From contig JAJXVH010000007.1 of NCBI GenBank assembly GCA_021782205.1, positions 1 through 64,000 of the forward strand: DNA of 64,000 nt, read 5' to 3'. Below, piece by piece: positions 12,548-43,236 of this stretch (positions are counted from its first letter, which is position 1; every line of letters starts with the position of its first letter). The notes below the pieces were generated by a model. The model was not told where the DNA came from, ran no database searches, and was given only the letters and a program-made list of their open reading frames with translations. The position numbers and the translations under genes were made by a program. The stretch is from a bacterium (GTDB taxonomy: Bacteria; Elusimicrobiota; Elusimicrobia; UBA1565; UBA9628).

Positions 12548-13378
12548 ATGGCGTTGCATCTACCGATCAACGGCGTCTGCAATATCAAGTGCGTGTTCTG
12601 TTCCGCGCACGGGCGCACGGGCGGCTATGAGTTGCCGGACCTGCTGAAGGAAATCAACGACGACAGGACGGGCCACGTGCAGATCTCGGGCGGCGACCCG
12701 ATGATGCGCAGGCCGCTGGAAGTGCTGGCCATCGTGGCGCATGCGAAGAAACAGGGTAAGATCGTCGAGTTCCAGACCAACGGCGTTCTGGTGGAGAAAT
12801 GGCCGCCGCGTCGCCTGAGCCAACTCACGGGCCTGATCGACTTCTGGAACATTAATTTTTCCGCGCACACGCCGGAATTGGATGAGGCGGTGACGCTGAC
12901 GCCGGGTGCGTTCGACGCGCGTTCGCGCGGGGTGCGCCGCCTGCTGACGTTGGGCAAGCCCGTGCGTCTCAACTACATCGTTCACGAGCAGAACTACCGC
13001 CATGCCGAGGACTTCGTACGCTTCGCGGCGAAAGCGTTTCCGGGCTTCGCGTGGATACAGTTCTCCTACGTCAAGGGCATGGGCCGCGCCAAGGGCAACG
13101 CCATGGTGATGCCGCGTTTTCGCGACGCCGCCCCTTTCCTGACGCGGGCCTTCCGCGCCTGCGACGAACTGGGCGTGAACTTCGACGTGGACCACATCCC
13201 CGTCTGCTTCGTGCTGGAGTGGAAGGACCGCCACGCCGACTACCGCAAGATGCGCGAGGCCCAGCCGGGACGCCACCTGGCGGAAAAACAGCAGGTCGCC
13301 GACTGCGACGGCTGCGCCATGCGCGAGCTGTGCCCGGGGCCGCGCAAGGACTACATCGAGGTCTACGGAAGCCTATGA
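12548..13378 (+). CDS. Radical SAM protein, first gene of the cluster
   Basis: A 276-residue radical SAM enzyme. C11-x3-C15-x2-C18 lies at the very N-terminus in NGVCNIKCVFC, and the GGE-type motif appears as ISGGDPM. A C-terminal CDGCAMRELCPGP forms a short SPASM/twitch-like cysteine set that probably binds an auxiliary cluster. Such short maturases often act on peptides. It is translationally coupled (ATGA) to the cysteine-desulfurase-like gene. The 56-nt gap upstream holds a TATGAT that may be a -10 box at 12528, without a convincing -35. The substrate is unknown. Confidence 0.85.
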   Translation: MALHLPINGVCNIKCVFCSAHGRTGGYELPDLLKEINDDRTGHVQISGGDPMMRRPLEVLAIVAHAKKQGKIVEFQTNGVLVEKWPPRRLSQLTGLIDFWNINFSAHTPELDEAVTLTPGAFDARSRGVRRLLTLGKPVRLNYIVHEQNYRHAEDFVRFAAKAFPGFAWIQFSYVKGMGRAKGNAMVMPRFRDAAPFLTRAFRACDELGVNFDVDHIPVCFVLEWKDRHADYRKMREAQPGRHLAEKQQVADCDGCAMRELCPGPRKDYIEVYGSL

Positions 13379-14658
13379 ACGCGGCCTCAGCAATCGCTGC
13401 CTTCGACGTCGAGGCCCTGCGCGCGCGCTACCCGGCGTTGGAGCGTGCGCGCGACGGCCGCCGCCTGGTCTACCTCGACAGCGCGTGCACCGCGCTTAAG
13501 TCCCGGCGCATGGCCGACGCTTTAGCTGCGTTCTACGCCGAGGGCGGCGGCTGCGGCGGCAAGCGCTCGACGCACCGCCTGGGCCGCGAGGTCGAGGAGC
13601 TCTTTTCCGCCGCGCGCGCCGCGGCCGCGGCCTTCCTGAACGCCGACGGCCCCGGCGAGATCGTCTTCACCTCGGGCACGACCGAGGCCGCCAACCTGGT
13701 CGCCCGCGGATTTCCGTACGACGACGCGCGTCGCGGCGTGGTGATCACGGACTTGGAGCACAACGCGGTGGCCCTGCCGTTCTTGGAAGCCGCGCGGCGC
13801 GGCGAGATTGACCTGAAAATCTGCCCCTCGCGCGACGGGCGTCTGGATTTGAACCGCTTGGAAGCGCTGGTGGGCGAGACGACGGCGCTGGTCGCGGTCA
13901 CGCACGCGTCCAACGTCATGGGCGGCGTGGCGCCGGCGGCCGAGGCGGCCAAGATCGCGCGGCGCAAGGGCGCGCGGATCTTCGTCGACGACGCGCAGTT
14001 TCTGGGCACCCACCGCGAGAACGTGGCGACCTTGGGCGCGGACTTCGTCGCGTTCTCGGCGCACAAGCTGGGCGGGCCTTTCGGCTTCGGCGTGCTCTGG
14101 GGGCGGGAAAACGAGCTCCATCGCTTGCGCCCCTGGAAAGTCGGAGGCGGCACGGTCAAGGACGTGGCTTGGGACGGCGGCGAGGGACTGCCCGAGGCGG
14201 TTTATCTCGACGCCCCCGCGCGCTTGGAGGCGGGAGTGCCTGACTTCGGCGGAGCGGTCGGCCTGCGCGAGGCCTTGGCCGAGCGCGAGGAGCTTCCGGC
14301 GGCCGCGGTCCGCGCGCACGTCGCGGGACTGGTGCGGCGGACCGTCGCGGGGCTGGTGAAGACCGCGGCCGTGCGCGTGCTCGGACTTCCCGAGGACTTG
14401 GAAAAGGGAAGCCTGGTGAGCTTCGCGCCCGCGCATCCAGAATTCTCGGCCCAGGACTTCAACATTTATCTGAACAATGAACTGCCGGGACGCTTCGTGG
14501 CCGTCCGCGTCGGCGAGCACTGCGCGCACCTTCTGCATCGCCGCCTGGGCGTCAATGCCAGCGTGCGCGCCTCCTTTGGCCCCTACAACACCGCGGCCGA
14601 GGCGGACCTCTACGTGGACGCCGTCGCTTCCTACGCGCGGGAGGCCTGCGGTGGCTGA
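13375..14658 (+). CDS. Class V aminotransferase / cysteine desulfurase (SufS-like)
   Basis: A 427-residue PLP enzyme. VYLDSACTALKS at the N-terminus, VFTSGTTEAANLVA, DLEHNAVALPF, IFVDDAQFLGTH and the Schiff-base lysine in SAHKLGGPFGFGVLWG all fit the SufS/CsdA branch. A cysteine that could carry a persulfide is present in RVGEHCAHLL, at the position of the SufS active-site Cys. Starting at ATG 13375 gives a 4-nt overlap with the radical SAM gene before it. The next radical SAM gene starts inside its last codons. Placed between radical SAM genes, it could supply sulfur for cluster repair or for insertion into a product. No SufE, SufU or SufBCD is visible. Confidence 0.82.
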   Translation: MNAASAIAAFDVEALRARYPALERARDGRRLVYLDSACTALKSRRMADALAAFYAEGGGCGGKRSTHRLGREVEELFSAARAAAAAFLNADGPGEIVFTSGTTEAANLVARGFPYDDARRGVVITDLEHNAVALPFLEAARRGEIDLKICPSRDGRLDLNRLEALVGETTALVAVTHASNVMGGVAPAAEAAKIARRKGARIFVDDAQFLGTHRENVATLGADFVAFSAHKLGGPFGFGVLWGRENELHRLRPWKVGGGTVKDVAWDGGEGLPEAVYLDAPARLEAGVPDFGGAVGLREALAEREELPAAAVRAHVAGLVRRTVAGLVKTAAVRVLGLPEDLEKGSLVSFAPAHPEFSAQDFNIYLNNELPGRFVAVRVGEHCAHLLHRRLGVNASVRASFGPYNTAAEADLYVDAVASYAREACGG

Positions 14659-15928
14659 CGTTCCCGCGCGCATCGCCGCCGAACTGCCCGCGCTCGAGCG
14701 CATCGACCGCGAGAGCTTCGACGAGCCCAAGTGCTTCGACATCCTGCTCAACTACAACTGCTCGGCCAAGTGCCTGTTCTGCTCCCAGGACTTCGCGTGG
14801 CGCAAGGAGCCCAACGACCTGCCCTTCGAGAAGGCCGTCGAGTTCATGTACATGGCCTACAAAAACGGCTACCGCCGCCTGGGATTTACCGGCGGCGAGC
14901 CGACGATCCGTCCGGAGCTGCCCAAGCTCATCGCGCTGGCCAAGAAGATCGGCTACGGCTACGTGCGCATCCAGACCAACGGCATCCGCATCGCCGATTA
15001 CGCCTACGCGAAGACCCTCGCCGACGCGGGCCTGACCTTCGTGAAGTACTCCCTGCACGGCCACAACGCGGAGCTTCACGACAAGCTGGTCGCGGTGCCC
15101 GGCGCCTTCGAAAAGAATCTGCGCTCCATCGAGAATCTTAAAAAATTGAACGTGGGCATCGGCGTCAACATCGTGCTCAACGATTGGAACTACCGCCACC
15201 TCGTGGAGTTCTACGAGCTGTTCCTGCTCAAGCTCCAGCTCTCGAACTTCGTCATCATCGCTCCGCTCTACGAGGGCAACATGACCCTCAACGACAAGGA
15301 GGGCGCCAAGATCGGCGCGCGCCTGTCGGACATGGCACCCTACATTCGAAAGGCCTACGAGGTCTTCACCAAGATCAACTATCCCAAGCCGCCGCTTCTG
15401 CTCCATTTCACGCCCTGCGTTCTGCCCGGCTACGAGCAGCAGATGCTGGGCTGGTCGGCGTTCAACACCATGGTCGTCAATCCCAAGGGCGAGAAGCGCG
15501 ACCTGGACATGACCGCGCAGTCGCACACGACCAAGACCGAGGCGTGCAAAAAGTGCGTCTACAACGACCGCTGCATCGGCTGGGACTCAAGCTACGCGCG
15601 CGTGTTCGGCACCGATGAGATTGCGCCGCTTCTGGAGATTCCGGAGCGCTACGACGCGCCCACGCGTGGCCGGCCCGCGCACGAAGGCCGGGGCGGCGTG
15701 CTGACCGACAACGAGCAGTGCGTGCTGGAGGTGCTCAAGCGGCGCAATGATTTGACGACCAAGCAGTTCCTGGAGGTCGCCGAGTCCCTGCCCATCTGCA
15801 AGGACTGCAAGGACGAGAACGCCGTGATGAACGCGGCGGAGACCTTGATCAAGATGGGCGTCGTCGAACGCCGGTTCGTCAAGGGCAAGTATCTCTGGTC
15901 GCGCAAGGCGGAGGTGCCCGCCACATGA
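14651..15928 (+). CDS. Radical SAM protein with C-terminal winged-helix-like domain
   Basis: A 425-residue enzyme starting at GTG 14651, with GGGAGG about 7 nt upstream. The motif is C37-x3-C41-x2-C44 in NYNCSAKCLFC, with TGGEPTIRPELP, QTNGIRIADY and KYSLHGHNAELHD. Auxiliary-cluster cysteines lie in FTPCVLPGY and EACKKCVYNDRCIGW. After about residue 345 there is an extra domain with a helix-turn-helix look (NEQCVLEVLKRRNDLTTKQF, then METLIKMGVVERRFV-like helix and wing), which also has CKDCKDEN. The extension may be a peptide-recognition or regulatory domain. It is closely related to the radical SAM domain of the gene at 27185 and to the gene at 30970, which share LHDKLVxVPGAF-type and HFTPCV segments. 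Confidence 0.87.
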   Translation: MADVPARIAAELPALERIDRESFDEPKCFDILLNYNCSAKCLFCSQDFAWRKEPNDLPFEKAVEFMYMAYKNGYRRLGFTGGEPTIRPELPKLIALAKKIGYGYVRIQTNGIRIADYAYAKTLADAGLTFVKYSLHGHNAELHDKLVAVPGAFEKNLRSIENLKKLNVGIGVNIVLNDWNYRHLVEFYELFLLKLQLSNFVIIAPLYEGNMTLNDKEGAKIGARLSDMAPYIRKAYEVFTKINYPKPPLLLHFTPCVLPGYEQQMLGWSAFNTMVVNPKGEKRDLDMTAQSHTTKTEACKKCVYNDRCIGWDSSYARVFGTDEIAPLLEIPERYDAPTRGRPAHEGRGGVLTDNEQCVLEVLKRRNDLTTKQFLEVAESLPICKDCKDENAVMNAAETLIKMGVVERRFVKGKYLWSRKAEVPAT

Positions 15929-16905
15929 GCGCGCGCGCCGAAAGCGGCTGGACGCCGCCGCCGGGCCGGACGCAGAAGTTGGTGCTGTTCACCGGCTTCT
16001 CCTGCTCCAGCCACTGCCACTTCTGCATCGACCTCAACAAGCGCGACCTGCCCGACAAGTCCTCGCGGCAGATCGTCGAGGAGATGGTCCGCGCCAAGGC
16101 CGCGGGTGTGGAGTATCTGGAGATGATCGGCGGCGAGGCCACGATCCGCGGCGATTTCATCCCACTGGTGCGGACCGCCCGCAAGCTGGGCTTTAAAGAC
16201 GTCGTCGTGGTGACCAACGGCCGCATGTTCGCCGATCCCGCCTTCGCCCGGGCCACGGTCGAGGCCGGAGTCACCGACCTGGTCTTCTCCATCCACGGCC
16301 CCGACGCGAAGCTCCACGATGAGTTGACCTACGTGCCCGGCGCGTTCGACGAGTTGATCCAGGGCGTCGCCCACGTGCGCGCGGCGGGCCTTGCGCGCAT
16401 CTTCGGCAACTGCACCGTGGTCAAGCAGAACATGAAGCGCCTGCCGGAGATCGCGGCGCTGTTCTTGAAGCTGGCCATCCACCACGTCGAGTTCATTTTC
16501 GTGGACCCGACCTACGGCGGTGCCTATACGAACTTCAACGGATTGGTGCCGCGCATCGCGGACGCCGCGCCGTACATGCGCGCGGCGCTGGACGTGGGCC
16601 GCCGCGGCGGCACGCGCGACTTCGTGGTGCGCTACGTGCCGCTGTGCCACTTCACCGACTACCTGGACCAGGTCTCCGAGATCCGCGAGGTCGCGACCTT
16701 CCGCACCCGCCACTGGGCGCCGGACTTCATCAACGATGACGTCGGCGCGGGGCGCGTGGCCGCGGGCCGCGCGAAGACGGAGCGTTGCGCGGGCTGCGCG
16801 CTGTACGATCGCTGTGAAGGAATTTGGCGGGAGTATTTGAATCGCTATGACGATTCTGAACTCATCTGCGTTGGAAAAGCGGCGACGGTCGGTGAGGATC
16901 GCTGA
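15925..16905 (+). CDS. Radical SAM protein
   Basis: A 326-residue enzyme with C27-x3-C31-x2-C34 in GFSCSSHCHFCIDL, IGGEATIRGDF (GGEA in place of GGEP), VVTNGRMFADP and FSIHGPDAKLHDELTYVPGA. A C-terminal CAGCALYDRCEGIWREY provides a short cysteine set for an auxiliary cluster. The start overlaps the preceding radical SAM stop by 4 nt. The stop is followed 1 nt later by the methylase gene. It belongs to the same subfamily as the genes at 14651, 27185 and 30970. The substrate is unknown; context suggests a peptide. Confidence 0.87.
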   Translation: MSARAESGWTPPPGRTQKLVLFTGFSCSSHCHFCIDLNKRDLPDKSSRQIVEEMVRAKAAGVEYLEMIGGEATIRGDFIPLVRTARKLGFKDVVVVTNGRMFADPAFARATVEAGVTDLVFSIHGPDAKLHDELTYVPGAFDELIQGVAHVRAAGLARIFGNCTVVKQNMKRLPEIAALFLKLAIHHVEFIFVDPTYGGAYTNFNGLVPRIADAAPYMRAALDVGRRGGTRDFVVRYVPLCHFTDYLDQVSEIREVATFRTRHWAPDFINDDVGAGRVAAGRAKTERCAGCALYDRCEGIWREYLNRYDDSELICVGKAATVGEDR

Positions 16906-16906
16906 C

Positions 16907-17626
16907 ATGCGCCGCAAAGGCCGACTTGTACTCGCGTCCTATGGCCTCAACGATCGGCAGATGACTATTGAGACTTTGGTCGCCTTGCGCGAGTGCGATT
17001 TAATTTACAGCGAGTCTTTGGATGGAGATTCACGGGCGTCTCTTGAGCGGACGTGTCCTCCCATCATTTCTCTGCGGGATATTGCACCGGACGACGTCAC
17101 GGATTTGTTGATCTCGGAGGTGCGCAAAGGGAAGAATGTCGCGTACCTGACTTACGGAGATCCCGGGATTTTAAGTCCTTGCGAACGGTTCGTTTCGCGA
17201 TGTGAAAAGGAAAAAATAGAATATCGCCTGTATCCGGCGATTTCTTCCCTCAACGTGCTTCTCTGGCAGGAAAAACTAATCAAGTCCGGCGCGGCCGGCG
17301 TCTTGTTGAGTTGGGTGGGCGCGGAAATCCGCGCGTTCTGCATCGATATTCCGGCGCTTGTTTTTCTTTTTGGAGTGAAGCCGTTCAACAGCGCAAGCGT
17401 GGCGAGTCTGATCGTGAATATTCAGCGCGCTTATCCGTCGGATCATGTCGTGGAGGTGCTCTCGTACGCGGCATCGACCCCGGATAACCCGCGCCGAAGA
17501 AAATACGCCGTGAGCGAGCTGGCGCGAGCATGGCGGGAGGCGGATAATCAGAGCACGCTCTACCTTCCCGCGGTCGGTCGTCGGGTAGCGAAGGCCCGTA
17601 AGCGGGTACGAGGCGGACATGCCTGA
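16907..17626 (+). CDS. Tetrapyrrole-methylase-fold SAM-dependent methyltransferase
   Basis: A 239-residue protein of the TP-methylase fold. Visible are RLVLASYGLNDRQMTIETL, ECDLIYSESLDG, VRKGKNVAYLTYGDPGIL (the G-D/H-P-G loop that binds SAM, residues 83-87) and YRLYPAISSLNVLLW. There is no cobalamin or siroheme biosynthesis gene nearby. Besides tetrapyrrole enzymes, the fold includes the borosin methyltransferases that N-methylate peptide backbones, and a peptide-modifying context makes that reading attractive. I use the ATG at 16907, with GGTGAGG upstream; an alternative start at 16847 would overlap the radical SAM gene by 59 nt. A related but divergent gene lies at 59407. Confidence 0.7.
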   Translation: MRRKGRLVLASYGLNDRQMTIETLVALRECDLIYSESLDGDSRASLERTCPPIISLRDIAPDDVTDLLISEVRKGKNVAYLTYGDPGILSPCERFVSRCEKEKIEYRLYPAISSLNVLLWQEKLIKSGAAGVLLSWVGAEIRAFCIDIPALVFLFGVKPFNSASVASLIVNIQRAYPSDHVVEVLSYAASTPDNPRRRKYAVSELARAWREADNQSTLYLPAVGRRVAKARKRVRGGHA

Positions 17627-18578
17627 TTTTCCGATCTGGCCGCAATGCAATATCGCCTGCGTTTTCTGCTCCAACCCGACGGAGGGTTATCGCGAGACGA
17701 CAGGGATGTATTCTTACGAAGAACTCAAGAAAAAGGTCGAGGACTACAAGCGCGGCCTACAGACTTTCGTTAAATTCGACGAGGTCGGCGACTACTTCAA
17801 TCTAACCGGCGGCGAGCCGACGATCCATCCTGAATTTCTGAGGGTGCTCGCCTTGATCCGAACGGAATTCCCCGCGAACCTGATCCGCCTGCTGTCCAAC
17901 GGCCGGATGTTCGCCGAAGCGAATTTCGCGCGCCGCACCTGCGGCATCGTCGGCCTGCCGTTCGAGATCGCTGTGCCGATGTTCGGCGGCGACGCTCGCA
18001 GCCACGAGGCAATCTCGCGCACGCCGCTTTCTTTCCAGCAGACCGTTCAGGGTCTGCGGAATTTAGCCAAGCATCGTCTTCCCGGCCAGAAGGTTGAGAT
18101 CCGGATCATCATGACGAAAGTTCAGGCGCGCTTTTTAGGCGGCTTGCTCGAGCTCTTGCTGGCTGAATTCGCATGGGTCGATCGCGTGGTGTTCCTGTTC
18201 GAAGAGATCGAGGGCTTCGCCGAACACTACAAGGATCGGCTGGTTTTCACTCAGAGCGAATGCGCCTCCGTCATCGATCGACATTTCGATATGCTTTCGA
18301 GGTTTAGGGAGGTGCGGCTGTACCATTTTTCGCTTTGTACCACGCCGACGCGGCTGTGGCCCTACGTTTGGCGCACCCTGGCCGGATTTAAAGTGACCTG
18401 GCTGGACGGTTGCCGCACCCGTTGCCTTTACCGCGAACAGTGCGTCGGCGTGCATCGATCCTACGAACGTCACGCGGGCGCTCCCGACATCTCGCCGATT
18501 CTGGAGAGGCGTCCGGTCGAGCTTTCTGGCGATCCCTACCATCCGATCAGGGCGGTCAATGACCCGACTTCGCTCTAA
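17619..18578 (+). CDS. Radical SAM protein
   Basis: A 319-residue enzyme with C10-x3-C14-x2-C17 right at the N-terminus (WPQCNIACVFC), LTGGEPTIHPEFL and LLSNGRMFAEANF. C-terminal cysteines lie in LDGCRTRCLYREQCVGVH, consistent with an auxiliary cluster. The short N-terminus and overall size resemble the first gene of the cluster at 12548. It overlaps the methylase gene by 8 nt and the following HxsD-like gene by 20 nt. This ties the upstream radical SAM block to the His-Xaa-Ser block. Confidence 0.86.
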   Translation: MPDFPIWPQCNIACVFCSNPTEGYRETTGMYSYEELKKKVEDYKRGLQTFVKFDEVGDYFNLTGGEPTIHPEFLRVLALIRTEFPANLIRLLSNGRMFAEANFARRTCGIVGLPFEIAVPMFGGDARSHEAISRTPLSFQQTVQGLRNLAKHRLPGQKVEIRIIMTKVQARFLGGLLELLLAEFAWVDRVVFLFEEIEGFAEHYKDRLVFTQSECASVIDRHFDMLSRFREVRLYHFSLCTTPTRLWPYVWRTLAGFKVTWLDGCRTRCLYREQCVGVHRSYERHAGAPDISPILERRPVELSGDPYHPIRAVNDPTSL

Positions 18579-18993
18579 GTGTGTCCGCGTGCGTGCGCCG
18601 GAACACGTGGATCGCCGCGCATTCTTGGATGCGTGCGGCCGAATGACCGATGACGCCTGGGTGCGCCTGGATGAGCGAAACGGACGACTCACGGCGGTGC
18701 TGACGCCCCGCGTCGGGTCCGGTGTGGGATTGGTCGCGCGCTGGCGCCGTGAATACGAATCGGCCGCAACGCGCTGCCTGTTTTTGGCCGAGCAGCGCGT
18801 TTTGAACGCGGCGGTCATGTCTCGGGCGCTGGAATTGGCCCAGCATGTGGACGCGCGACGGCAAAGGCCGTTGCCGGAGTTGTCGCCGGAGCGTCGCGCC
18901 GAGATTTCGGCCTTGTTGGCCGAGGCGGACGCCGCTCCCAAGGATCCTCTCGGCATCACGAGGCCGTGGTCGGATCGTGGGAGCCGCGATTGA
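18559..18993 (+). CDS. HxsD-like small protein 1
   Basis: A 144-residue protein that I place, with caution, with the small HxsD-type partners of His-Xaa-Ser systems. The order is a short beta strand (KCVRVRAPEHV), a helix (RRAFLDACGRMTDDAWVRL), a strand with a turn (NGRLTAVLTPR), then long helices (YESAATRCLFLAEQRVLNA, SRALELA). The Pro/Ala-rich charged tail LSPERRAEISALLAEAD closely matches LTPDQRAEIEKLIAEVE in the better HxsD candidate at 20506. It is coupled to the gene at 18990 by a TTGA overlap. It is the most divergent of the four, so the family name is tentative. Confidence 0.5.
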   Translation: MTRLRSKCVRVRAPEHVDRRAFLDACGRMTDDAWVRLDERNGRLTAVLTPRVGSGVGLVARWRREYESAATRCLFLAEQRVLNAAVMSRALELAQHVDARRQRPLPELSPERRAEISALLAEADAAPKDPLGITRPWSDRGSRD

Positions 18994-19370
18994 GGCGCGC
19001 TTCGGCGTCTCTGCCGCGGTCGCTTTATCGGCGCGCCGACCTTGCCGCCGCGGCGGATTGGTTGGGGGGGCGCGTTCAGGCCAGGCTTCTTTCTCGTGGC
19101 CAGCGCTGGCACCTTTCCATTTTGACCGACGCCGGATTGGATGCTCGCGCGGCCCTGGCGGAGATGCTCAATGAGGCGCTGTTGCGGGGCTTACGCGAAA
19201 TGCGGCTTAAAGAGGTCGGCCCGCTGGCCGCCGCCGTGGCCGGACGCATGCTCGATCATGGGTTTCCCTCGGACCCGGCGGACCCGTTGGAGGAAATGGA
19301 ACCGCAGGTCCGCGCCGACCGCAGGCGAGAAACTCAAGCGCTTATAGAGCGGGCTCGGGGCATACCGTGA
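18990..19370 (+). CDS. HxsD-like small protein 2
   Basis: A 126-residue protein. I start it at the TTG at 18990, which overlaps the previous stop (TTGA) and has GGGAG 7 nt upstream; the GTG at 18966 is the alternative. The layout is SLYRRADLAAAADWLGGRVQ (compare LYSEDAVRIAAHVFESQAEI in the gene at 22610), a beta hairpin RWHLSILTDAG, then ALAEMLNEALLRGLREM, matching the EFLNELLNQEQRM segment of the 22610 protein. It lies directly upstream of, and overlaps by 4 nt, the motif-less HxsB relative. The same D-then-B order is seen for the two intact HxsB genes, which supports pairing. Confidence 0.55.
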   Translation: MRRASASLPRSLYRRADLAAAADWLGGRVQARLLSRGQRWHLSILTDAGLDARAALAEMLNEALLRGLREMRLKEVGPLAAAVAGRMLDHGFPSDPADPLEEMEPQVRADRRRETQALIERARGIP

Positions 19371-20458
19371 CCTCGCGCCCCCCGCCTGGCGGAGGCGAGG
19401 CCGTCCCGGAATTACCGGATGTCGACGCGTTGGCGCGCGCGCTTGTCGCCACCGGAGTGCTCAACTGGACGGGACCTCTAACGCATGTTATTGTCGCATC
19501 CCGGGGAGCCGTCGGCATGTCGCCGGAAATGGCCCGGGCCGCCGTCGATTTCGCCTTTTCCACGCCGCGACCGACGATTCGTTTGGAGATCGTCGGTGCG
19601 GAGGGAGCCGGGCGTCAAGCGGGGTGGCTGGCGGTGGAATACGCGCGCCGAAAAGCGGAATGGAGAGGGCGGGGGTTGGCCTTGTCCTGGCGGACAGCGC
19701 GTCGACCCGCCGCGGAACAGTCGGCTTGGTTGGCCGCAAACCGTGTGGAAGTCGTGGCGGACGTGAGGGCCGTGGGCGGGCCGGAGCGTTCGCAGTTGTT
19801 TCCAGCCGCGCGCGCTCGCGTGCGGCTGGCGCGTGGGGCCGCGTGCCCCGAAAGTTGGATCGACGCCCTCGCGTCGTTGGGCGTTTCCCAGGTCTCGTGG
19901 GAGCCTGATGTCGTTGCTACGGATTGGCCAGCCCCTGGTTCGGCGCGCCGCGCGGCGAAGTTCGCGGCAAGGGCATTGGCGCGGCTCATTGAGACGCATG
20001 AACGTTCGGGCCTGCGCGACGAACGCGCCGTCGCGTTGCTTTCCTTTCGGCCTTGGGAAATTCCGGGAACGGATCTTCTGTCGACTCTCGCCTATTCGCC
20101 GGAGGGGGGAATCTACTCGTCGGAAGCGGGTTATCGACGGGCTGAAGAGGAGAACAATTCGAGGCGTTTGGGCTTTTTCGAAGTGACGCGGTTCTCTCAA
20201 TTCGCTTCAATGCCGACGGTTCAAGCCATCCTTGCTGCCGCGTGGCGAGCCGGCCATCCAGAGTGTTCCGATTGCCCTTACAGGGAACAGTGTTCGCTGC
20301 CATGGTCTCGGAAATCCTGCGGCAGAGGCGGTCCGGCTCACGCCTGGTGTGCGTTGCACACCGCCTTGATGCGTGGCATTTTTTCATATCCCGATCGCGA
20401 AAAATGTATAAGTGCATTGAATAAATGGGGCGTTGACATTTCTCGGATCGCCTGGTAA
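19367..20458 (+). CDS. HxsB-like protein lacking the radical SAM cysteine motif
   Basis: A 363-residue relative of the HxsB maturases downstream. Homology is visible at two ends. Residues 38-64 (LTHVIVASRG, then MSPEMARAAVDFAF) align with VHTIVVTRRC and MTPEIARAAVDLAF of the gene at 23077. Residues 240-330 (GGIYSSEAG; C300-x2-C303-x5-C309, C318, C328) align with the SPASM-type region GGVYTSEDG and MCSQCAYAPYC. The stretch that should hold CxxxCxxC is absent, as is the GGEP motif (LEIVGAEGAG). It therefore cannot bind the SAM-cleaving cluster, yet it keeps the C-terminal cysteines. It is intact and coupled to its HxsD-like partner, so it is probably a non-catalytic subunit rather than a pseudogene. 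Confidence 0.72.
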   Translation: MTSRPPPGGGEAVPELPDVDALARALVATGVLNWTGPLTHVIVASRGAVGMSPEMARAAVDFAFSTPRPTIRLEIVGAEGAGRQAGWLAVEYARRKAEWRGRGLALSWRTARRPAAEQSAWLAANRVEVVADVRAVGGPERSQLFPAARARVRLARGAACPESWIDALASLGVSQVSWEPDVVATDWPAPGSARRAAKFAARALARLIETHERSGLRDERAVALLSFRPWEIPGTDLLSTLAYSPEGGIYSSEAGYRRAEEENNSRRLGFFEVTRFSQFASMPTVQAILAAAWRAGHPECSDCPYREQCSLPWSRKSCGRGGPAHAWCALHTALMRGIFSYPDREKCISALNKWGVDISRIAW

Positions 20459-20461
20459 GAT
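20433..20461 (+). promoter_or_regulatory. Strong sigma70-type promoter before the HxsD/HxsB/HxsA genes
   Basis: A perfect TTGACA at 20433-20438, an exact 17-nt spacer, and TAAGAT at 20456-20461 (five of six). It lies over the last codons and stop of the motif-less HxsB relative, 44 nt before the ATG at 20506. It would let the catalytic HxsD/HxsB/HxsA block be transcribed independently of the genes upstream. Confidence 0.65.
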
Positions 20462-20505
20462 CAGTAGAGGTCGTATTTTGCTACCTTATTTGCGGCCAGG
20501 CGCTC

Positions 20506-21081
20506 ATGAGAAAATCAATAAAAAAATCACGTAAAATATTGAAGAAAAATCCGCGAGCGCGCAAAATCCGACCCGGCGGCGCGCGGGCGTCGGATGTGTG
20601 CGTGGTTCTGGACGCGCGTCGGGACGGTGTCGATGAGATATATTCGGCCGCCTATCTCATGATCGATAGAGCCTATGTGCTCCTCGAAGGTGACCCCAAA
20701 AAATCTATGCGCGTGACGTTACGTCCCAGAGATGTTCGCACGAAGGCCTCGCTGACGGCGGTGCGAAGCGATTTTATGTCGGAATTGGCCGCTCAACGGG
20801 TGCGCTGGTCCATAACGCGCAATAATCAGTCGATCCGCGAATACATCGCGGAAAACGCGCTGTCGCTGGCCGCGGAGTTTGGCGCGCGGTCAGAGGTCGC
20901 TGAACCGTCTGCGGCCGCAGAGCAACTCACCCCGGACCAGCGCGCCGAGATCGAAAAGCTGATCGCCGAAGTGGAAACCGAAATCAAGGCGATGAATGAG
21001 CAGAAGCCGGCGACCGATCCCAAGGCCGCAGTCGCTCCTTGGGAGGCAGGCCGTTTGCCCGGCGGAGAAAACCCCGCGTGA
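20506..21081 (+). CDS. HxsD-like protein 3
   Basis: A 191-residue protein. After a Lys/Arg-rich N-terminus (KKSRKILKKNPRARK) comes the HxsD-type core: VCVVLDARRDGVDEIYSAAY, DRAYVLLEGDPKKSMRVTLR, DFMSELAAQRVRWSITRNN and SIREYIAENALSLA. This is the usual order of a strand, helix, hairpin and long helices ending in an I-R-x-x-I helix. The C-terminus is a charged helical tail. HxsD proteins are the small fourth component of His-Xaa-Ser systems and may present the substrate. It has its own strong promoter and is coupled (GTGA) to the HxsB gene that follows. Confidence 0.68.
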   Translation: MRKSIKKSRKILKKNPRARKIRPGGARASDVCVVLDARRDGVDEIYSAAYLMIDRAYVLLEGDPKKSMRVTLRPRDVRTKASLTAVRSDFMSELAAQRVRWSITRNNQSIREYIAENALSLAAEFGARSEVAEPSAAAEQLTPDQRAEIEKLIAEVETEIKAMNEQKPATDPKAAVAPWEAGRLPGGENPA

Positions 21082-22613
21082 GCCGCTTGAGCGCGTTGCC
21101 TGCGAGCCTCCGACCCGAAACGAGCGGCCTCGGGCCCTTAAATTTTAGGAATTTCGGCGATTGGGGCCTGCTGACCAATGATTGGGGCCGCTGGCTGATG
21201 CTCGACAAGAATGATTTTTCGCGAGTCCTGTCGGGCGACGTGAAAGCCGGTGAGCCCCTGCATCAGCAACTCGCGCAGCGGGGCTTCCTGCGTGAGGCCA
21301 TGAACTTTCCGGAATTGGCCGCGTCTTATCAAAAGTTGACGTCATTCCGTCTGATTTCGGGCCCCAGCCTGCATATGATCGTCGTGACCTTGCGCTGCAA
21401 CCAAAAGTGCCTCTACTGCCATTCCAGCGTGGTCGATCCCTCCCGGACCGACACGGACATGGACTTGGAGACGGCCAAGCGCACGGTTGACTTTATTTTC
21501 GCGACGCCGAATCCCGCCCTCTGCATCGAATTCCAGGGTGGAGAGCCGCTGTTGAATTGGCCCGTTGTGAAGTTCGTCGTCCAATACGCGAAAGCGAAGG
21601 CCAAGGAGCAGAACCGACGCCTCCTTCTGGCGCTCGTCAATAATTTCACATTGATGACCGACGACAAGCTTCAATTCTTGATTGATCACGGCGTCTCCAT
21701 CTGCACATCCCTTGACGGCCCGGCCGATCTGCACAACAAAAACCGCCCGTTTCTGGGCGGAGGGGAGGCTCAGCCGAAAGTGGTCGGTTGGGTTCGGCGC
21801 ATCATGGACCTGGCCAGCACCGACGATTTGCGTAAGCCGTATCTGCCGAGCGCTCTGATGACGACGACGCGCTTCTCCTTGGGACGCGGCAAAGAGATCG
21901 TCGACCTGTACCGGGACCTCGGCATGGAGCAGATTTTTCTTCGTCCGCTGTCTCCGATCGGCTATGCCAAGCGCGTCTGGCATGAAATCGGTTACGAGCC
22001 CGAAGACTTTCTGCGCTTCTATGCGGAGACCCTCGATTACATTCTCGAGCTCAATCGCAAGAACCCGGACGAAATCATGGAGCGCTTTACGCTGGTGTTG
22101 TTGACGAAGATCCTCAAAGGTGAGGATCCCGGCTTCATGGATCTGCGCTGGCCCTCCGGCGCCGTGCTGGGCGCCCTCGCCTATAATTACGACGGGCGCA
22201 TCTTCGTCAGCGACGAGGGCCGGATGGTCGATCATCAGGGCGATCCGATCTTTCAAGTCGGCGACGTCGCGCGTGATTCTTGGCAAGACGTGCTCGACCA
22301 CCCGACCGCGCGGGCGTGCGCGGCCGCTTCCACTCTGGAGGCCCAGCCGATGTGCGCCCAGTGCGCCTACAAGCCATGGTGCGGGGTGGAGCCCGTCTTC
22401 CATTACGAAATGCAGAGGTCGATTGCCGGACGTATGCCGGACAGCCCGTGGTGCCGCGTTCACATGGGGGAATTCGACATCGTCATGCAGCGGCTGCGCG
22501 ATCCGAGCAGCCGCGCCGTTTTCGACCGATGGCTCGAGCGGGACCTTTGCCACTGGCAAGAAAACGACCCGGTCCTGGTGCCCGGCCAGCCCATTCCGGA
22601 GGCTTTGCGATGA
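21078..22613 (+). CDS. hxsB: His-Xaa-Ser system radical SAM maturase, HxsB type (copy 1)
   Basis: A 511-residue enzyme starting at GTG 21078. The N-terminal recognition-like part reads GLLTNDWGRWLMLDKNDF, then VLSGD and QLAQRGFL. The radical SAM motif is C107-x3-C111-x2-C114 in LRCNQKCLYCHSS, followed by DMDLETAKRTVDFIF, IEFQGGEPLLNWPVVKF and CTSLDGPADLHNKNR. The SPASM-type C-terminus has PMCAQCAYKPWCGVEPVF and PDSPWCRVHMG. This arrangement, and the phrase IEFQGGEPLLNWP, are what I know from HxsB maturases. It follows an HxsD-like gene and precedes another HxsD/HxsB pair. Its presumed substrate is the His-Gly-Ser repeat protein encoded at 24559. Confidence 0.82.
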   Translation: MSRLSALPASLRPETSGLGPLNFRNFGDWGLLTNDWGRWLMLDKNDFSRVLSGDVKAGEPLHQQLAQRGFLREAMNFPELAASYQKLTSFRLISGPSLHMIVVTLRCNQKCLYCHSSVVDPSRTDTDMDLETAKRTVDFIFATPNPALCIEFQGGEPLLNWPVVKFVVQYAKAKAKEQNRRLLLALVNNFTLMTDDKLQFLIDHGVSICTSLDGPADLHNKNRPFLGGGEAQPKVVGWVRRIMDLASTDDLRKPYLPSALMTTTRFSLGRGKEIVDLYRDLGMEQIFLRPLSPIGYAKRVWHEIGYEPEDFLRFYAETLDYILELNRKNPDEIMERFTLVLLTKILKGEDPGFMDLRWPSGAVLGALAYNYDGRIFVSDEGRMVDHQGDPIFQVGDVARDSWQDVLDHPTARACAAASTLEAQPMCAQCAYKPWCGVEPVFHYEMQRSIAGRMPDSPWCRVHMGEFDIVMQRLRDPSSRAVFDRWLERDLCHWQENDPVLVPGQPIPEALR

Positions 22614-23080
22614 TGAAAATTAAAGTGGATATCAAAGAGCGCCGCGCCATCGTGCGCGCGCCGCGACGTCTCTACTCGGAGGATGCCGTTCGGATCGCCG
22701 CGCATGTCTTTGAATCGCAGGCGGAGATTTATCACGACCAGACCGGAAGCGAGCATGTCCTGACCCTTGTCGCTCGGCGCAAGGATTGGGAGGACCTGCG
22801 TTTGGAAGCGCTCGGCGGCGAGTTTCTTAACGAGTTGCTGAATCAGGAACAACGGATGCGCGTGGCGCGTTTCAACCGGCGCATCTCGGAGCGCATCGTC
22901 GCTCAGGCCCTCCTGGCGGCGCGCGGCGGAGAAAATCCCGCGCCCAGGCAAGAGGACTCTCCGGAACTGCGGGCCGAGGCCGCCCGCCTCATGGCGGCCG
23001 CCGCCGATGAGATCCGCCGCACCATGCCCGCGCGCATTGCGCCGCAAGGACCGCCCATGCGCGCGCCGGAGCCCGCGTGA
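22610..23080 (+). CDS. HxsD-like protein 4
   Basis: A 156-residue protein and the best HxsD match of the four. It starts MMKIKVDIKERRAIV, then LYSEDAVRIAAHVFESQAEI, VLTLVARRKDWED, GGEFLNELLNQEQRMRVARF and NRRISERIVAQALLAA, and ends in an Ala/Pro-rich tail. HxsD proteins have this strand-helix-hairpin-helix core with F-x-N-E-L-L-x-Q and R-x-x-V residues. It begins in a 4-nt overlap with the preceding HxsB and ends in a GTGA overlap with the next one. The tail residue pattern (GGENPAP) recurs as LPGGENPA in the 20506 protein, hinting at duplication of the D/B unit. Confidence 0.72.
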   Translation: MMKIKVDIKERRAIVRAPRRLYSEDAVRIAAHVFESQAEIYHDQTGSEHVLTLVARRKDWEDLRLEALGGEFLNELLNQEQRMRVARFNRRISERIVAQALLAARGGENPAPRQEDSPELRAEAARLMAAAADEIRRTMPARIAPQGPPMRAPEPA

Positions 23081-24534
23081 CGCTCGCCGGTTCCCGCCTG
23101 ACCTCCATCGCGTCGCACCTGGAGCGGGAGCCGCGCCGCGTCGCGGGGCATGCCGCGCGGCGCCTTGGGACGCGGGTTCTGGTCACTTCCGATTCCGGGC
23201 GCTGGATCACGCTTTCGCACGGGGAATATGATCGCTATCTGTCCGGCGGCGTGAGCGACGACGAACCCTTGGGCGCCACGCTGGCGGAGCGCGGCTTGCT
23301 GCGCGATCGTCTGGATTTCGCGGCGCTTGGAGAAGCGTTTTCATCCCGGCATCTTCTTCGATGGCCCGGTCCCGGAGTACACACGATCGTGGTCACCCGC
23401 CGGTGCAACTTTCGGTGCGTCTATTGCCACGCGAGCGTCGTTCCCGAAGATGATCGTTCGACGGACATGACTCCGGAAATCGCGAGGGCCGCGGTCGATC
23501 TGGCCTTTCAATCGTCCAATCCGGAAATGACGATCGAATTCCAGGGCGGCGAGCCCTTGCTGAATTGGCCGGTGGTCAAATTCATCATCGATTATGCCCG
23601 CCTCAAGAACGTCGTTGCGGGAAAACGTCTGCATTTTGGTTTGATCTCGAACTTCAGCTTGCTCGACGACGCGAAAATCGACTGGCTTGTCGAGCGCGGA
23701 GTCAGCTTCTGTACATCCCTGGACGGCCCCGCGGATATTCACGACGCGAATCGGGTGTATCTGGGCGGCAATGGCCATGCCTCGGTCGTCGCCGGCCTCA
23801 AGGCGATCCAGGCTCGACGCGCCGCGGGCGCGAAAATTGATTCGCCCAACGCGATCTGCACGGTCACACGGCTTGCGCTGACGCGGCAAAAAGAGATCAT
23901 CGATCAAGCGGTGGAATTGGGCCTTGAGCGGATTCAATTGGGCCCGCTCGACCCGGTCGGTTTTGCCCGCCGATCTTGGGGCCGCGTGGGATACTCGTCT
24001 TCGGAATTCGTCGATTTCTACGCGCGGGCGCTGGACTATCTGATCGCGCTCAATCAGCGCGGCGTGAAAGCGTATGAAAAAACCGCGCTCGTGCTTTTGA
24101 TCCGCATCCTGCGCGGTGAGCATTGGCGCTTTCCAAACGCCGACGGCGCCGCGCGCTTGGCCTATGATTGGGACGGCGGCGTGTACACGTCCGAGGACGG
24201 CCGATTGTTGGCCGCGGACGGTGACGAATTCTTCCGCGTCGGAGAAGCCGGGCGCTCGAATTTGGCGGAGATCCTCGACCATCCGCTGGTAAAGACCTCG
24301 CAGTACGCGGCCCTGCCCTGGGCGCAGCCGATGTGCTCGCAGTGCGCTTACGCGCCTTACTGCACGGTGCAGCCGGTCTTCAACTATGAGACGCAAGGCA
24401 GCCCGTGGGGCCGCATGCCGGTCAACGGCTGGTGTGAAAAAATGATGGGAATTTTCGACGTGCTGTTCGCGCGGCTGGAGGACCCGGCGGCGCGGACCGT
24501 GCTCGAGTCGTGGCTCGAGTATAAAGACCGATAG
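23077..24534 (+). CDS. hxsB: His-Xaa-Ser system radical SAM maturase, HxsB type (copy 2)
   Basis: A 485-residue paralogue of the gene at 21078. The N-terminal part has LVTSDSGRWITLSHGEYDRY, the motif C110-x3-C114-x2-C117 in RRCNFRCVYCHAS, DMTPEIARAAVDLAF, IEFQGGEPLLNWPVVKF and CTSLDGPADIHDANR. The SPASM region holds PMCSQCAYAPYCTVQPVF and VNGWCEKMMG. GTG start, overlapping the HxsD stop by 4 nt. It ends 24 nt before the ATG of the HxsA gene. Two intact copies in one locus imply either two substrate proteins, two segments of one substrate, or two distinct reactions. Confidence 0.84.
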   Translation: MTLAGSRLTSIASHLEREPRRVAGHAARRLGTRVLVTSDSGRWITLSHGEYDRYLSGGVSDDEPLGATLAERGLLRDRLDFAALGEAFSSRHLLRWPGPGVHTIVVTRRCNFRCVYCHASVVPEDDRSTDMTPEIARAAVDLAFQSSNPEMTIEFQGGEPLLNWPVVKFIIDYARLKNVVAGKRLHFGLISNFSLLDDAKIDWLVERGVSFCTSLDGPADIHDANRVYLGGNGHASVVAGLKAIQARRAAGAKIDSPNAICTVTRLALTRQKEIIDQAVELGLERIQLGPLDPVGFARRSWGRVGYSSSEFVDFYARALDYLIALNQRGVKAYEKTALVLLIRILRGEHWRFPNADGAARLAYDWDGGVYTSEDGRLLAADGDEFFRVGEAGRSNLAEILDHPLVKTSQYAALPWAQPMCSQCAYAPYCTVQPVFNYETQGSPWGRMPVNGWCEKMMGIFDVLFARLEDPAARTVLESWLEYKDR

Positions 24535-24558
24535 CGCGTGCGCGCGGAGGACGAGAGA

Positions 24559-24924
24559 ATGGCCAAGAAGAACGCGAAGAAGGGCGGAAAGACGAAGGAT
24601 TCCAGCAAGCTAAAAAAAGGCAAGTTGCTGTCCCGGGTCAAGAAGGACGCCTCGGTGTTCCTGAGCTCGGAGGAGGGCAAGGTCACCAAGGAAAATGTCG
24701 TCAAGACGGCTGCGGCTCTCGGCATCATCGGCGCGGCCCTGCTGAAGGCCTCGCCCGCGCCCGCGGCCCACGGAAACTATCTGCACAATTCCGGCGGAGT
24801 CGGGTCGCATACCAGCCATGGCTCACACGGATCTCACGGCTCCCATGGTTCCCACGGTTCCCACGGTTCCCACGGTTCTCACGGCTCTCATTGCCGCGGT
24901 GGGTGGTGCAACCCGAGATGCTGA
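24559..24924 (+). CDS. hxsA: His-Xaa-Ser repeat protein, HxsA type (probable modified substrate)
   Basis: A 121-residue protein with a Lys-rich N-terminus, a leader-like helix (DASVFLSSEEGKVTKENVV), a hydrophobic AAALGIIGAALL segment ending in SPAPAAHGNY, and then a His-Gly-Ser repeat core. Residues 82-111 read GSHTSH followed by eight GSH units. The tail has three cysteines (C112, C117, C121). This is the layout of HxsA proteins, whose repeats are the proposed targets of HxsB/HxsC. I chose ATG 24559 because GGAGG lies 8 nt upstream; an upstream GTG at 24538 gives a poorer start. The adjacent D/B genes on one side and radical SAM genes on the other make it the most likely substrate of the locus. 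Confidence 0.85.
   Translation: MAKKNAKKGGKTKDSSKLKKGKLLSRVKKDASVFLSSEEGKVTKENVVKTAAALGIIGAALLKASPAPAAHGNYLHNSGGVGSHTSHGSHGSHGSHGSHGSHGSHGSHGSHCRGGWCNPRC
24802..24891 (+). repeat. 9-nt tandem repeat encoding Gly-Ser-His
   Basis: About ten imperfect copies of a 9-nt unit (consensus GGT TCC CAC) in frame within the HxsA gene. Identical units in the middle (several GGTTCCCAC in a row) and wobble variants at the edges show that the array is young and could change length by slippage. Confidence 0.9.
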
Positions 24925-24961: not shown

Positions 24962-26065
24962 GTGGCTCTGGACCACCTAGCCGTCTATCTGAGCAATAGC
25001 TGCAACTTGGCCTGCAGCTATTGCTATGTCGCGGTCAATCAAGGTCCGGCCGCACGCCTGGATTTTGATGCCGTGCGGCGTGCGGTCGACGAGTTCGTGG
25101 CGCGGGTCTCGCCCGATAAGCGGAAGGTCACTTTTATCGGCGGCGAGCCGCTTCTTGATTGGCCGTTGTTCGTCGAGTCCGCCCGCTACGCGCGCAGGGC
25201 GATGGGTCCAAGCGGGGTGCTGCAGACGTTCACGAACGGGACCTTGCTGACTCCTTCGAAGATTTCTTTTTTTGAAGAGGTCGGCGTTCATTGCACCGTA
25301 AGCGTGGACGGCCGCAAAGAAGACAACGACCTTCATCGTGTTTTCTATAAAACCGTCGGCCGATCCGTGTATGACGACGTGATGGAGCGTCTGCGGCCCT
25401 TGGACAAATCCCGTTTGGGCGTCAGCCTGGTCTTCACGGCGCGCACCGTGGACCGTCTTCTGTCCAACGTGGACGCATTCCATCGCATGGGATTCGGGCG
25501 GGTGACGTTCAATCCGGAGCTTTATGAGGCATGGCCGGAAGAAAAAATCGAGGCCATGCGGCTTGCGCTAAAAGGCCTTTCGCGCTGGTACCGTGCGTTG
25601 CTCGACGCGGGCGTTCGTCCGCCTCAGTTGCAGATACTCTATGCGGTCTTGGAGGCCGACGAACAGAATGCGGTCGACCCTCTTTGGTGGCGCGACTGCC
25701 ATAATATGACCCTGGGGCCGGACGGTCGTTACTATTCGTGCGACAAAGCGCTTTCTCATCCGATCGGAACCGCGGACGGCTTGGTCTCCGGCTCCGCGCA
25801 GACCGGCATGGACTGGGCGGGCCGCCAAGAGCGGCTCGACGACCCGGCGGCGCTCATCGAGTCCAGCGGAGAGGGTGCCGGCCATGTGTTTTGCCCGATC
25901 GGTGTGGTCGAACACGCCCGCCTTGCGGGACGCGACCCGGCACCGGCGTTGAAGAATTTTAGGCGCGTGGCCGACGCTTTTTCCGTCGGGTTGCATGACC
26001 TCGTCTCGCGATGCTCCGGCCATCCCGTCTACGAGGAAATGTATGGACGCGCCCGCGCCTGCTGA
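24962..26065 (+). CDS. Radical SAM maturase next to HxsA (HxsC position)
   Basis: A 367-residue enzyme, GTG start. C14-x3-C18-x2-C21 lies at the N-terminus (SNSCNLACSYCY), with IGGEPLLDWPLF, QTFTNGTLLTPSK and VSVDGRKEDNDLHR. Auxiliary-cluster cysteines occur in WRDCHNMTLGPDGRYYSCDK and HVFCPIGVVEHA. It follows hxsA by 37 nt, where HxsC would be expected, but I cannot confirm that it is HxsC rather than another peptide maturase. A paralogue at 31932 has the same length and layout but has lost every C-terminal cysteine. It overlaps the next radical SAM gene by 23 nt. Confidence 0.8.
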   Translation: MALDHLAVYLSNSCNLACSYCYVAVNQGPAARLDFDAVRRAVDEFVARVSPDKRKVTFIGGEPLLDWPLFVESARYARRAMGPSGVLQTFTNGTLLTPSKISFFEEVGVHCTVSVDGRKEDNDLHRVFYKTVGRSVYDDVMERLRPLDKSRLGVSLVFTARTVDRLLSNVDAFHRMGFGRVTFNPELYEAWPEEKIEAMRLALKGLSRWYRALLDAGVRPPQLQILYAVLEADEQNAVDPLWWRDCHNMTLGPDGRYYSCDKALSHPIGTADGLVSGSAQTGMDWAGRQERLDDPAALIESSGEGAGHVFCPIGVVEHARLAGRDPAPALKNFRRVADAFSVGLHDLVSRCSGHPVYEEMYGRARAC

Positions 26066-27200
26066 AATCCACGCCGCCTATGGTCCCGCGGAACTGGCGC
26101 GTCTGCGTGCTTTGGGGTTGGCGACGAATAAGGAAATTCGCCGATTTAAAGTCGCCGTAAATACCGCCTGTCCGTTGCGCTGCGATTACTGCTTCATCGA
26201 CAAGGATTCCGGTGAAACGATCTCTTGGGAGCACGTGGCCGGACTTGTGCGCTTCCTGCTGTCTTCACCCGGCCACGTGAAGAAACTTCTGTTGTACGGT
26301 GGAGAGCCGTTTCTGAATTTCGCGCTGGTGCGCGAGATCGCACTCTACGCCCGCGCCGAGGCGCTCAAGGCCGGAAAGGATTTGGATTTGTCGATCTGCA
26401 CCAGCGCGGCTCTCCCGTTGCGCACCGAATGGCTGGAATTCCTGCGCGACCAGCGGTTCTTCTTATCAGTCAGCATGGACGGAGACGCCGCGACCCATGA
26501 CGCTCATAGACACGACAAGGGCGGCGTCGGTTCTCATGCGCGCATGATTCCGAATCTGCCGCCGATTTTCGAATCGATCGGTCGCCGCCGCGCGATGGCG
26601 ATTCAATGCGTGCATCCCGGCAATGTCGAGAAAATGCTCGACAACTTCAAAACCCTCGCTGGTTATGGATTCGAGAATATTGAAATTGAAGTCATTCATG
26701 GGTTCGGCTGGAAAGACAAGAAGCATCTTTTTCGCCCAATGATGCAGAGAGTGTTGGACTGGGTGTGGGAGGAGGCCCGGGCGGGGCGGCGACGCTTTGT
26801 CGTTTGTTCGCTGGTGCCGCTGATGCTCAAGGATGGCGTCGTTCGCGAGGATTGGTGCCCGTTCCACTCATCGATGGAAACGTACCCTGACGGCAGCTTT
26901 TCATTCTATCCGTTCGCGTTCGTGGATTGGGATGGACGCAGACGCTCCAAAGTGGGGGACGCCTCCGGTGGAATTCCGCCGCGTTTCCAGGATTGCTCAT
27001 TCGACCTGGGATCGGATAAATGTCGGAACTGCACCACCGATTACTATAAGAATCCGTCCGTGAACGAAGGCAACGATCCCTATCGCTGGCGCACCGAGAT
27101 GGCGCGTGCGTTCATGGACAAGGTCGCAATGGTCGCGCGAACCGATCCGACGATGAAGGAATATCTGAAGGAGGCGCTGATTCGGTGCCGCATCAGCTGA
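26043..27200 (+). CDS. Radical SAM protein, anSME/SPASM-like
   Basis: A 385-residue enzyme with C43-x3-C47-x2-C50 in NTACPLRCDYCFIDKDSG, LLYGGEPFLNFALV and FLSVSMDGDAATHDAHR. Later cysteines lie in VREDWCPFHSSME (after DGSFSFYPF), and in FQDCSFDLGSDKCRNCTTDYY, enough for auxiliary clusters of the SPASM kind. I start it at ATG 26043, preceded by GAGGAA; a longer reading to 25995 would extend further into the previous gene. It overlaps the TPR-radical SAM fusion by 16 nt. Related SPASM proteins modify peptides or sulfatases. No sulfatase is visible here, so a peptide substrate is more likely. Confidence 0.83.
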   Translation: MDAPAPAEIHAAYGPAELARLRALGLATNKEIRRFKVAVNTACPLRCDYCFIDKDSGETISWEHVAGLVRFLLSSPGHVKKLLLYGGEPFLNFALVREIALYARAEALKAGKDLDLSICTSAALPLRTEWLEFLRDQRFFLSVSMDGDAATHDAHRHDKGGVGSHARMIPNLPPIFESIGRRRAMAIQCVHPGNVEKMLDNFKTLAGYGFENIEIEVIHGFGWKDKKHLFRPMMQRVLDWVWEEARAGRRRFVVCSLVPLMLKDGVVREDWCPFHSSMETYPDGSFSFYPFAFVDWDGRRRSKVGDASGGIPPRFQDCSFDLGSDKCRNCTTDYYKNPSVNEGNDPYRWRTEMARAFMDKVAMVARTDPTMKEYLKEALIRCRIS

Positions 27201-40621: not shown

Positions 40622-41379
40622 GCCTCACGGATCGAAGCAAGCGCGAGTTTATACGGCGGGGTTATCTGACCCTGCGCGGAATCGTCCCGCGGATGAAAAT
40701 CGGTCCCGCGCTACGCGTTATTAATCAGAAGCTCGGCTCCGGTTCGAGGAAAGGCGCCAGCCCCGAGCATGTGCCGTTTTTCTCCGATCTGTTCAACTCC
40801 CCGGAACTGATGTCTCTATTGATGGAGACGAAGCTTTGGCCTGTCGTCGAGAGTCTCCTTGGTCCTGGATGCGCCCAGCGTCCGCAAGCCGAAGTCACGC
40901 TGGGCTTCCCGAACATGGACGCCTCCGCTCATTTTAACGCCAAGGAGCTTCACATCGACGGGCTTCCGGACAAGGGCCGCCGTGAGACCTATACGCTGAA
41001 CGTCGGCGTATTTCTCAGCGACGTTCCCGGTCCGAACATGGGTAATTTCAAGGCATGCCCCGGATCGCACCTGTGGGTTGCCGAGCATGCGCGTCGTTTC
41101 GGGCCTTATGGCATTAACCCGGCGTTGAGGGACCTGCGCGGCACCGCCGGAGAAACCGATGAGCTCATCGCGCGTGCCGGCGATGCGGTGGTTTGCCACT
41201 ACAATCTTGTTCATGCGCGCCAGTGGAACGCCTCGCCGCACATTCGCTATGCCGTATTTTTTCGCGTCTATGCGAAGGGGCACCTCACACGATGGCAATA
41301 CGTGATGCGAGAACCCTGGGTCGAGTGGGCGGGGCTGGCCCATCTTCGGCCGAAGAACGCTGGGAGCACTGCGGACTAG
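40618..41379 (+). CDS. PhyH-family Fe(II)/2-oxoglutarate oxygenase 2
   Basis: A 253-residue paralogue of the preceding oxygenase, coupled by ATGA. H112-x-D114 in ELHIDGLPDKG and the distal H199 in NLVHARQWNASPHIRYAVFF form the iron site; LNVGVFLSDVPGPNMGNFKACPGSH is the core. It shares the N-terminal pattern KREFIRRGYLTLRGIV with the PhyH domain start of its neighbour (KRALMSKGYVRLPAV). Its stop shares the four bases CTAG with the stop of the convergent halogenase-like gene, so it closes the plus-strand cluster with no room for a terminator. Confidence 0.82.
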   Translation: MSLTDRSKREFIRRGYLTLRGIVPRMKIGPALRVINQKLGSGSRKGASPEHVPFFSDLFNSPELMSLLMETKLWPVVESLLGPGCAQRPQAEVTLGFPNMDASAHFNAKELHIDGLPDKGRRETYTLNVGVFLSDVPGPNMGNFKACPGSHLWVAEHARRFGPYGINPALRDLRGTAGETDELIARAGDAVVCHYNLVHARQWNASPHIRYAVFFRVYAKGHLTRWQYVMREPWVEWAGLAHLRPKNAGSTAD

Positions 41380-43127: not shown

Positions 43128-43236
43128 TTCCAGCCCCCCGCGTTCCATTCCCGGTCTCGACAGGGTCATTATAGCACCCGGGGCGTGCTTGGCTGGAACG
43201 CGCTGTGGCCGACTGCGCCGCGTCAGGGGGGAGTGC

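Follow-up and report, generated by a model that had tools for sequence, protein, structure and literature searches.

A conserved pseudo-HxsB and an association between precursor tail and enzyme content in an ancient multi-HxsB variant of the His-Xaa-Ser system

Results

Organization of the locus

We identified in the 3.09-Mb draft genome (177 contigs) of an uncultured Elusimicrobia bacterium a His-Xaa-Ser locus of RiPP type with one HxsA4 precursor (Table 1). The window, which is the whole 64,000-nt stretch of DNA that we analyzed, carries at positions 17619-24924 the gene order hxsC-like, D1, D2, B3, D3, B1, D4, B2 and HxsA4. Between 18559 and 24924 lie four HxsD-type genes, two intact HxsB genes (B1 and B2), one HxsB relative (B3) and one HxsA4 gene. 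The original prediction of an expanded His-Xaa-Ser system assigned the family correctly: B1, B2 and HxsA4 scored above the cut-offs of their models, the last of them being the Gly-Ser-His repeat protein that had been placed at the end of the run. Also as predicted, an HxsD-type gene lies directly 5' of each intact HxsB (D3 of B1 and D4 of B2). The description of the locus as three HxsD/HxsB units was accurate in that the third unit consists of two HxsD-type genes and a motif-less HxsB relative, but it overstated the symmetry, as the HxsB of that unit is dead. The gene list given at the time also omitted HxsC, and we found an HxsC-like gene directly upstream of D1.

Most of the genes are chained by 4-nt overlaps, as had been claimed for the whole run (D2/B3, D3/B1, B1/D4 and D4/B2, and also D1/D2 provided that D2 starts at the TTG at 18990). 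The claim does not extend to the hxsC-like/D1 junction, where the overlap is 20 nt, or to the 47-nt gap between B3 and D3 and the 24-nt gap between B2 and the HxsA ATG. The literature that we searched contained no paper on multi-HxsB loci.

Additional radical-SAM genes flank the locus (12548-13378, 14477-16905 and 27185-32945), several of them HxsC4-like; the one at 27185-30973 (1262 aa) carries a long, fused TPR region. The radical-SAM genes are closely preceded by a 306-aa ORF (11571-12491) that has a hydrophobic stretch at its N-terminus and did not match Pfam. Two TP_methylase (PF00590) genes were also present, one on the minus strand (59407-60249) and one (16904-17626) located between an HxsC4-like gene and hxsC that had no match in the loci of relatives. 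A long run of TPR proteins occupies positions 32911-58113 and includes two PhyH dioxygenase-like genes (39827 and 40501) and two flavin halogenase-like genes (41376-43349 and 52100-54631). A second locus of the same genome (G000:C140, L037) has the simple order HxsD-HxsB-HxsA plus a radical-SAM gene, and its HxsA tail is GSY.

Table 1. Features of the His-Xaa-Ser locus and adjoining genes, with model scores and cut-offs.
Feature	Coordinates	Strand	Basis
SufS-like cysteine desulfurase	13390..14658	+	TIGR01979 297 bits, below cut-off; kept upstream of the locus in relatives
HxsC4-like radical SAM	14477..15928 (true start probably near 14650)	+	NF038332 110 bits, cut-off 500
rC_b, HxsC4-like radical SAM	15925..16905	+	NF038332 116 bits; adjoins hxsC, conserved
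HxsC-like radical SAM protein	17619..18578	+	TIGR03977 145.6 bits, cut-off 267.9
D1, HxsD-type, alpha subtype	18559..18993	+	Sister to D3 (tree); HHalign to D3 99.8%
D2, HxsD-type, beta subtype	18990..19370 (start TTG 18990; alternative GTG 18966)	+	Sister to D4 (tree); HHalign to D4 99.0%
B3, conserved pseudo-HxsB	19367..20458	+	No CxxxCxxC; four C-terminal Cys retained
D3, HxsD, alpha subtype	20506..21081	+	TIGR03976 47.2 bits, cut-off 50
B1, intact HxsB radical SAM maturase	21078..22613	+	TIGR03978 469 bits, cut-off 370
D4, HxsD, beta subtype	22610..23080	+	TIGR03976 43.8 bits and NF038315 24.5 bits, both below cut-off
B2, second intact HxsB, separate old clade	23077..24534	+	TIGR03978 395 bits, cut-off 370
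HxsA4 precursor: leader, His-Gly-Ser repeat, CRGGWCNPRC tail	24559..24924	+	NF038313 72.4 bits, cut-off 55
rP_a, PapB-like radical SAM, proposed tail maturase	24962..26065	+	NF047865 114.5 bits, cut-off 340
rP_b, PapB-like radical SAM, proposed tail maturase	26043..27200	+	NF047865 97.1 bits (computed on 25995-27200), cut-off 340

Conservation and age of the gene positions

The gene order hxsC-D1-D2-B3-D3-B1-D4-B2-A recurs in the same genus and family and partly in a second family of the order, an arrangement far beyond what chance would produce in so many genomes. Most of the named relatives that share the locus are Elusimicrobia metagenome-assembled genomes (MAGs). In the family of the window (f1) we found it in ten loci (L021, L022, L025, L026, L027, L028, L029 and L031, and on shorter contigs L023 and L024), and the partial order occurs in three loci of the second family (f2; L030, L035 and L038), several of the loci compared ending at contig ends. 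The orthologues of the HxsC-like protein (63-77% identity) adjoin D1 in the relatives, and those of rC_b are 67-79% identical. Two of the f2 loci depart from the pattern around B2: L030 has a divergent HxsD/HxsB pair in its place, and L038 has such a pair together with a degenerate B2. In L031 (G011, a single-contig genome), B1 and rP_b are split over frames, possibly by sequencing errors.

Phylogenetic trees placed each gene position in a clade of its own, except that L030 and L038 have additional D4-like copies, which fall outside D4. The HxsD-type genes pair across the units: D1 and D3 are sister groups, as are D2 and D4. B1 clusters with the HxsB of single-HxsB loci, and this group is split from B2, B3 and the second HxsB of genomes of the same class (f13) with support of 100/99, with a long-branch caveat for B3. 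Because every position is an old, separate clade, the trees rule out a recent tandem duplication; the units that the original prediction called multiplied are ancient paralogues. Two of the f13 loci (L133 and L134) have three intact HxsB genes around one HxsA with an ARGGWC tail, and hxsC-like and HxsC4-like genes downstream. An orthology between B3 and the third intact HxsB of f13 was considered but is unsupported by the tree, again with the long-branch caveat.

The HxsD-type proteins

HMM and profile comparison identified all four small proteins as HxsD-type, and both large intact proteins pass the HxsB model and do not belong to an unrelated SPASM family, in agreement with the identities originally proposed. 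D3 and D4 scored just below the TIGR03976 cut-off. D1 and D2 had no direct match in NCBIfam or Pfam; some of their orthologues weakly matched TIGR03976 (D1) or NF038315/TIGR03976 (D2), and in profile comparisons (HHalign) all pairs among D1-D4 were above 95%. An AlphaFold model of D4 (mean pLDDT 93) predicted an alpha/beta fold whose C-terminal helices are long and whose topology is beta-beta-alpha-beta-beta-alpha-alpha. The comparison of this model with the PDB gave no match at E <= 0.001, and no RRE was among the 50 matches listed. As the predicted fold is not winged-helix and the PDB comparison was without significant match, the possibility that HxsD is an RRE (a PqqD-like winged helix) is unsupported. 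The model showed weak resemblance to dimerisation subunits of the Rpb11 type and to chaperones of type III secretion.

In several ordinary HxsB loci, such as those of Myxococcota, hxsD and hxsB are likewise separated by a second, short HxsD-like gene. A pair of HxsD genes ahead of a single HxsB is therefore not a unique trait of the locus, and D1-D2-B3 follows an ordinary arrangement, except that its HxsB is dead.

B3 is a maintained pseudo-radical-SAM protein

B3 matched the HxsB model with 40.7 bits over profile positions 337-451 only, short of the cut-off of 370. In a 25-row alignment of HxsB homologues, the nine B3 rows had gaps at all three columns of the SAM-cluster cysteines (CxxxCxxC), whereas four C-terminal cysteine columns were invariant in all 25 homologues, every B3 included. 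The copy in the window is diverged and lacks about 50 N-terminal residues; its N-terminal domain is lost, as is that of L022. Pairwise dN/dS ratios between B3 proteins were 0.22-0.32 by a simple counting method, with synonymous sites near saturation for the pair that includes the window. An AlphaFold model (mean pLDDT 87) had a radical-SAM/SPASM-like fold, with CteB as the best match and ChlB, anSME and TigE among the others. Among 295 genomes of the phylum, orthologues of B3 (E < 1e-134 when complete) were found in f1 and f2 only, and the next matches were ordinary HxsB proteins at about 1e-81. Thus, judged by its sequence, B3 is a maintained pseudo-radical-SAM protein that is unable to form a SAM radical by the usual motif. 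The loss of this motif and the retention of the putative auxiliary-cluster cysteines in a long-conserved protein suggest a helper role for a "dead" enzyme. The B2 of L038 has also lost CxxxCxxC and kept the C-terminal cysteines, apparently independently of B3, its position in the tree being on a long branch.

The precursor tail and the enzyme content of the locus

In most loci the last residue of HxsA is aromatic (HGQW, HGAW, W, Y or F), and in others the protein ends in (S/A)RGGWC or CRGGWC(N/C)PRC. The last type follows the repeat of the HxsA4 in the window (CRGGWCNPRC) and is conserved in all complete f1 multi-unit loci. We compared tail type and enzyme content with our own HMMs in loci whose sequence continues downstream of hxsA for 4.5 kb or more. 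Two or more intact HxsB genes were present in 14 of the 16 Cys-tail loci and in 1 of the 26 other (aromatic-tail) loci, and an rP_b-like enzyme (at least 140 bits) in 13 and none, respectively (Fisher p ~3e-8 and ~2e-8, for related loci and with thresholds chosen after seeing the scores). Well-supported branches of the HxsB tree force at least three changes of tail, and the association reflects only about three transitions among loci that are not independent. The exceptions were two Cys-tail loci with one HxsB (L072 and L143) and three without an rP_b match of 140 bits (L072, L116 and L133). L143 (G020:C17) belongs to a separate Cys-tail lineage and combines its single HxsB and an SRGGWC tail with two rP_b-like genes (~145 bits). 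The Cys-tail loci of f1 also contain rP_a. The best NCBIfam match of both rP_a and rP_b is the PapB model.

The covariation of enzyme content and tail type may provide a route to assign enzymes to parts of the precursor, and it suggests that B2-type HxsB and the PapB-like enzymes act on the Cys tail and B1 on the repeat. The original expectation of several modifications on one substrate thus gained indirect support, as the second HxsB and the PapB-like enzyme co-vary with a Cys tail carried by the same precursor. A tail-specific role for B3 was also considered and discarded: the f2 loci that carry B3 have the tail SHFSF, which places B3 outside the tail chemistry.

Discussion

Our analyses describe an ancient multi-HxsB variant of the His-Xaa-Ser system that has a conserved pseudo-HxsB and in which the type of precursor tail is associated with enzyme content. 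We infer with moderate confidence a division of labor whereby B1 works on the repeat, B2 and the PapB-like enzymes on the Cys tail, and B3 and its HxsD partners serve as a non-catalytic subunit. B1, a relative of the HxsB of single-HxsB loci, would modify the His-Gly-Ser repeat together with HxsC. B2 and rP_a/rP_b would act on the CRGGWCxPRC tail and probably introduce Cys crosslinks. The HxsD proteins may attach to either the precursor or the enzyme, or link the two. Generating no SAM radical of its own, B3 would contribute as a non-catalytic subunit, serving as scaffold for a neighboring HxsB or HxsC or relaying electrons by way of an auxiliary cluster that it has kept. In the literature that we searched, we found no paper that establishes the reaction of HxsB.

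Two studies of other maturases make a helper role for B3 plausible. TrnC works in a complex with TrnD, and modification by this complex is still complete when the CxxxCxxC of TrnD is mutated (PMC12093266). PapB requires intermolecular electron transfer, likely via an auxiliary cluster (PMC10470005). By analogy with TrnC/TrnD, a hetero-oligomeric maturase that includes B3 is plausible. More tentatively, B3 may have evolved, with its two HxsD proteins, into an obligate non-catalytic radical-SAM subunit that gives only an auxiliary Fe-S cluster and docking surfaces. It is similarly conceivable, if speculative, that such a subunit passes electrons to a catalytically active HxsB or HxsC, or that it holds the precursor in place for that enzyme.

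Other explanations of the extra genes have to be weighed against this division of labor. B3 could be a decaying pseudogene left by an HxsB duplication, D1 and D2 being remnants as well, in which case only B1 and B2 would matter. The long branches of the trees, the missing N-terminal domain of the copies in the window and L022, and the fact that D1 and D2 of the window no longer match the HxsD model would all fit such decay. Neutral decay would, however, not be expected to preserve an open reading frame and its position in two families, four C-terminal cysteines in nine proteins, the observed dN/dS ratios and the 4-nt coupling to D2, and we regard a pseudogene as very unlikely. Similarly improbable is that the extra units act on other precursors elsewhere in the genome, an idea that would account for a number of radical-SAM genes that seems much too large for a single peptide. 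The genome has only two HxsA4 precursors, and the other one (C140) has its own HxsD and HxsB; a draft in 177 contigs may have missed an HxsA4 precursor.

We give somewhat more weight, though still little, to a single hetero-oligomeric maturase in which all three units serve the His-Xaa-Ser repeat and handle long arrays, the tail being irrelevant to the number of HxsB genes. The repeat is the feature common to all HxsA proteins, and the thuricin TrnC/TrnD complex offers a precedent. Yet the single-HxsB loci L001, L010 and L012 have 29-36 repeat units, compared to 9 in the window, and the second HxsB tracks the Cys tail.

The closest known system is the His-Xaa-Ser system itself (TIGR03976-TIGR03978, NF038313), which shares the repeat precursor and the HxsB, HxsD and HxsC-like genes in one run. 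The locus described here departs from it in its HxsB genes (two intact and one pseudo-HxsB), in its four HxsD-type genes, in the additional PapB-like and HxsC4-like enzymes and in the Cys tail of the precursor. Thuricin CD TrnC/TrnD (PMC12093266) are likewise paralogous maturases for shared substrates, and a partner whose SAM motif is mutated can still sustain the reaction, the kind of role that we propose for B3. Both are, however, natural radical-SAM enzymes that form sactionines on two peptides, whereas B3 is naturally motif-less. The PapB ranthipeptide maturase (NF047865) is the best match of rP_a and rP_b, which accompany Cys-containing tails, but their scores (97-115 bits) are far below the cut-off of 340 and the tail lacks Asp and Glu, to which PapB couples Cys. 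The pseudo-SAM/SPASM family TIGR04347 comprises, by its name, relatives of radical-SAM proteins that lack SAM chemistry; B3, which stems from HxsB, does not match this model, to which only other proteins gave a weak match.

The role of auxiliary clusters in the radical-SAM superfamily has been called largely enigmatic (PMC10470005). If our reading is right, B3 is a natural radical-SAM pseudo-enzyme kept for its auxiliary cluster and, were it an obligate subunit, the labor of one maturase would be split between SAM-cluster and auxiliary-cluster chains. The covariation of tails and enzymes would, in turn, make it possible to match enzymes with parts of their precursor in a RiPP class that is uncharacterised.
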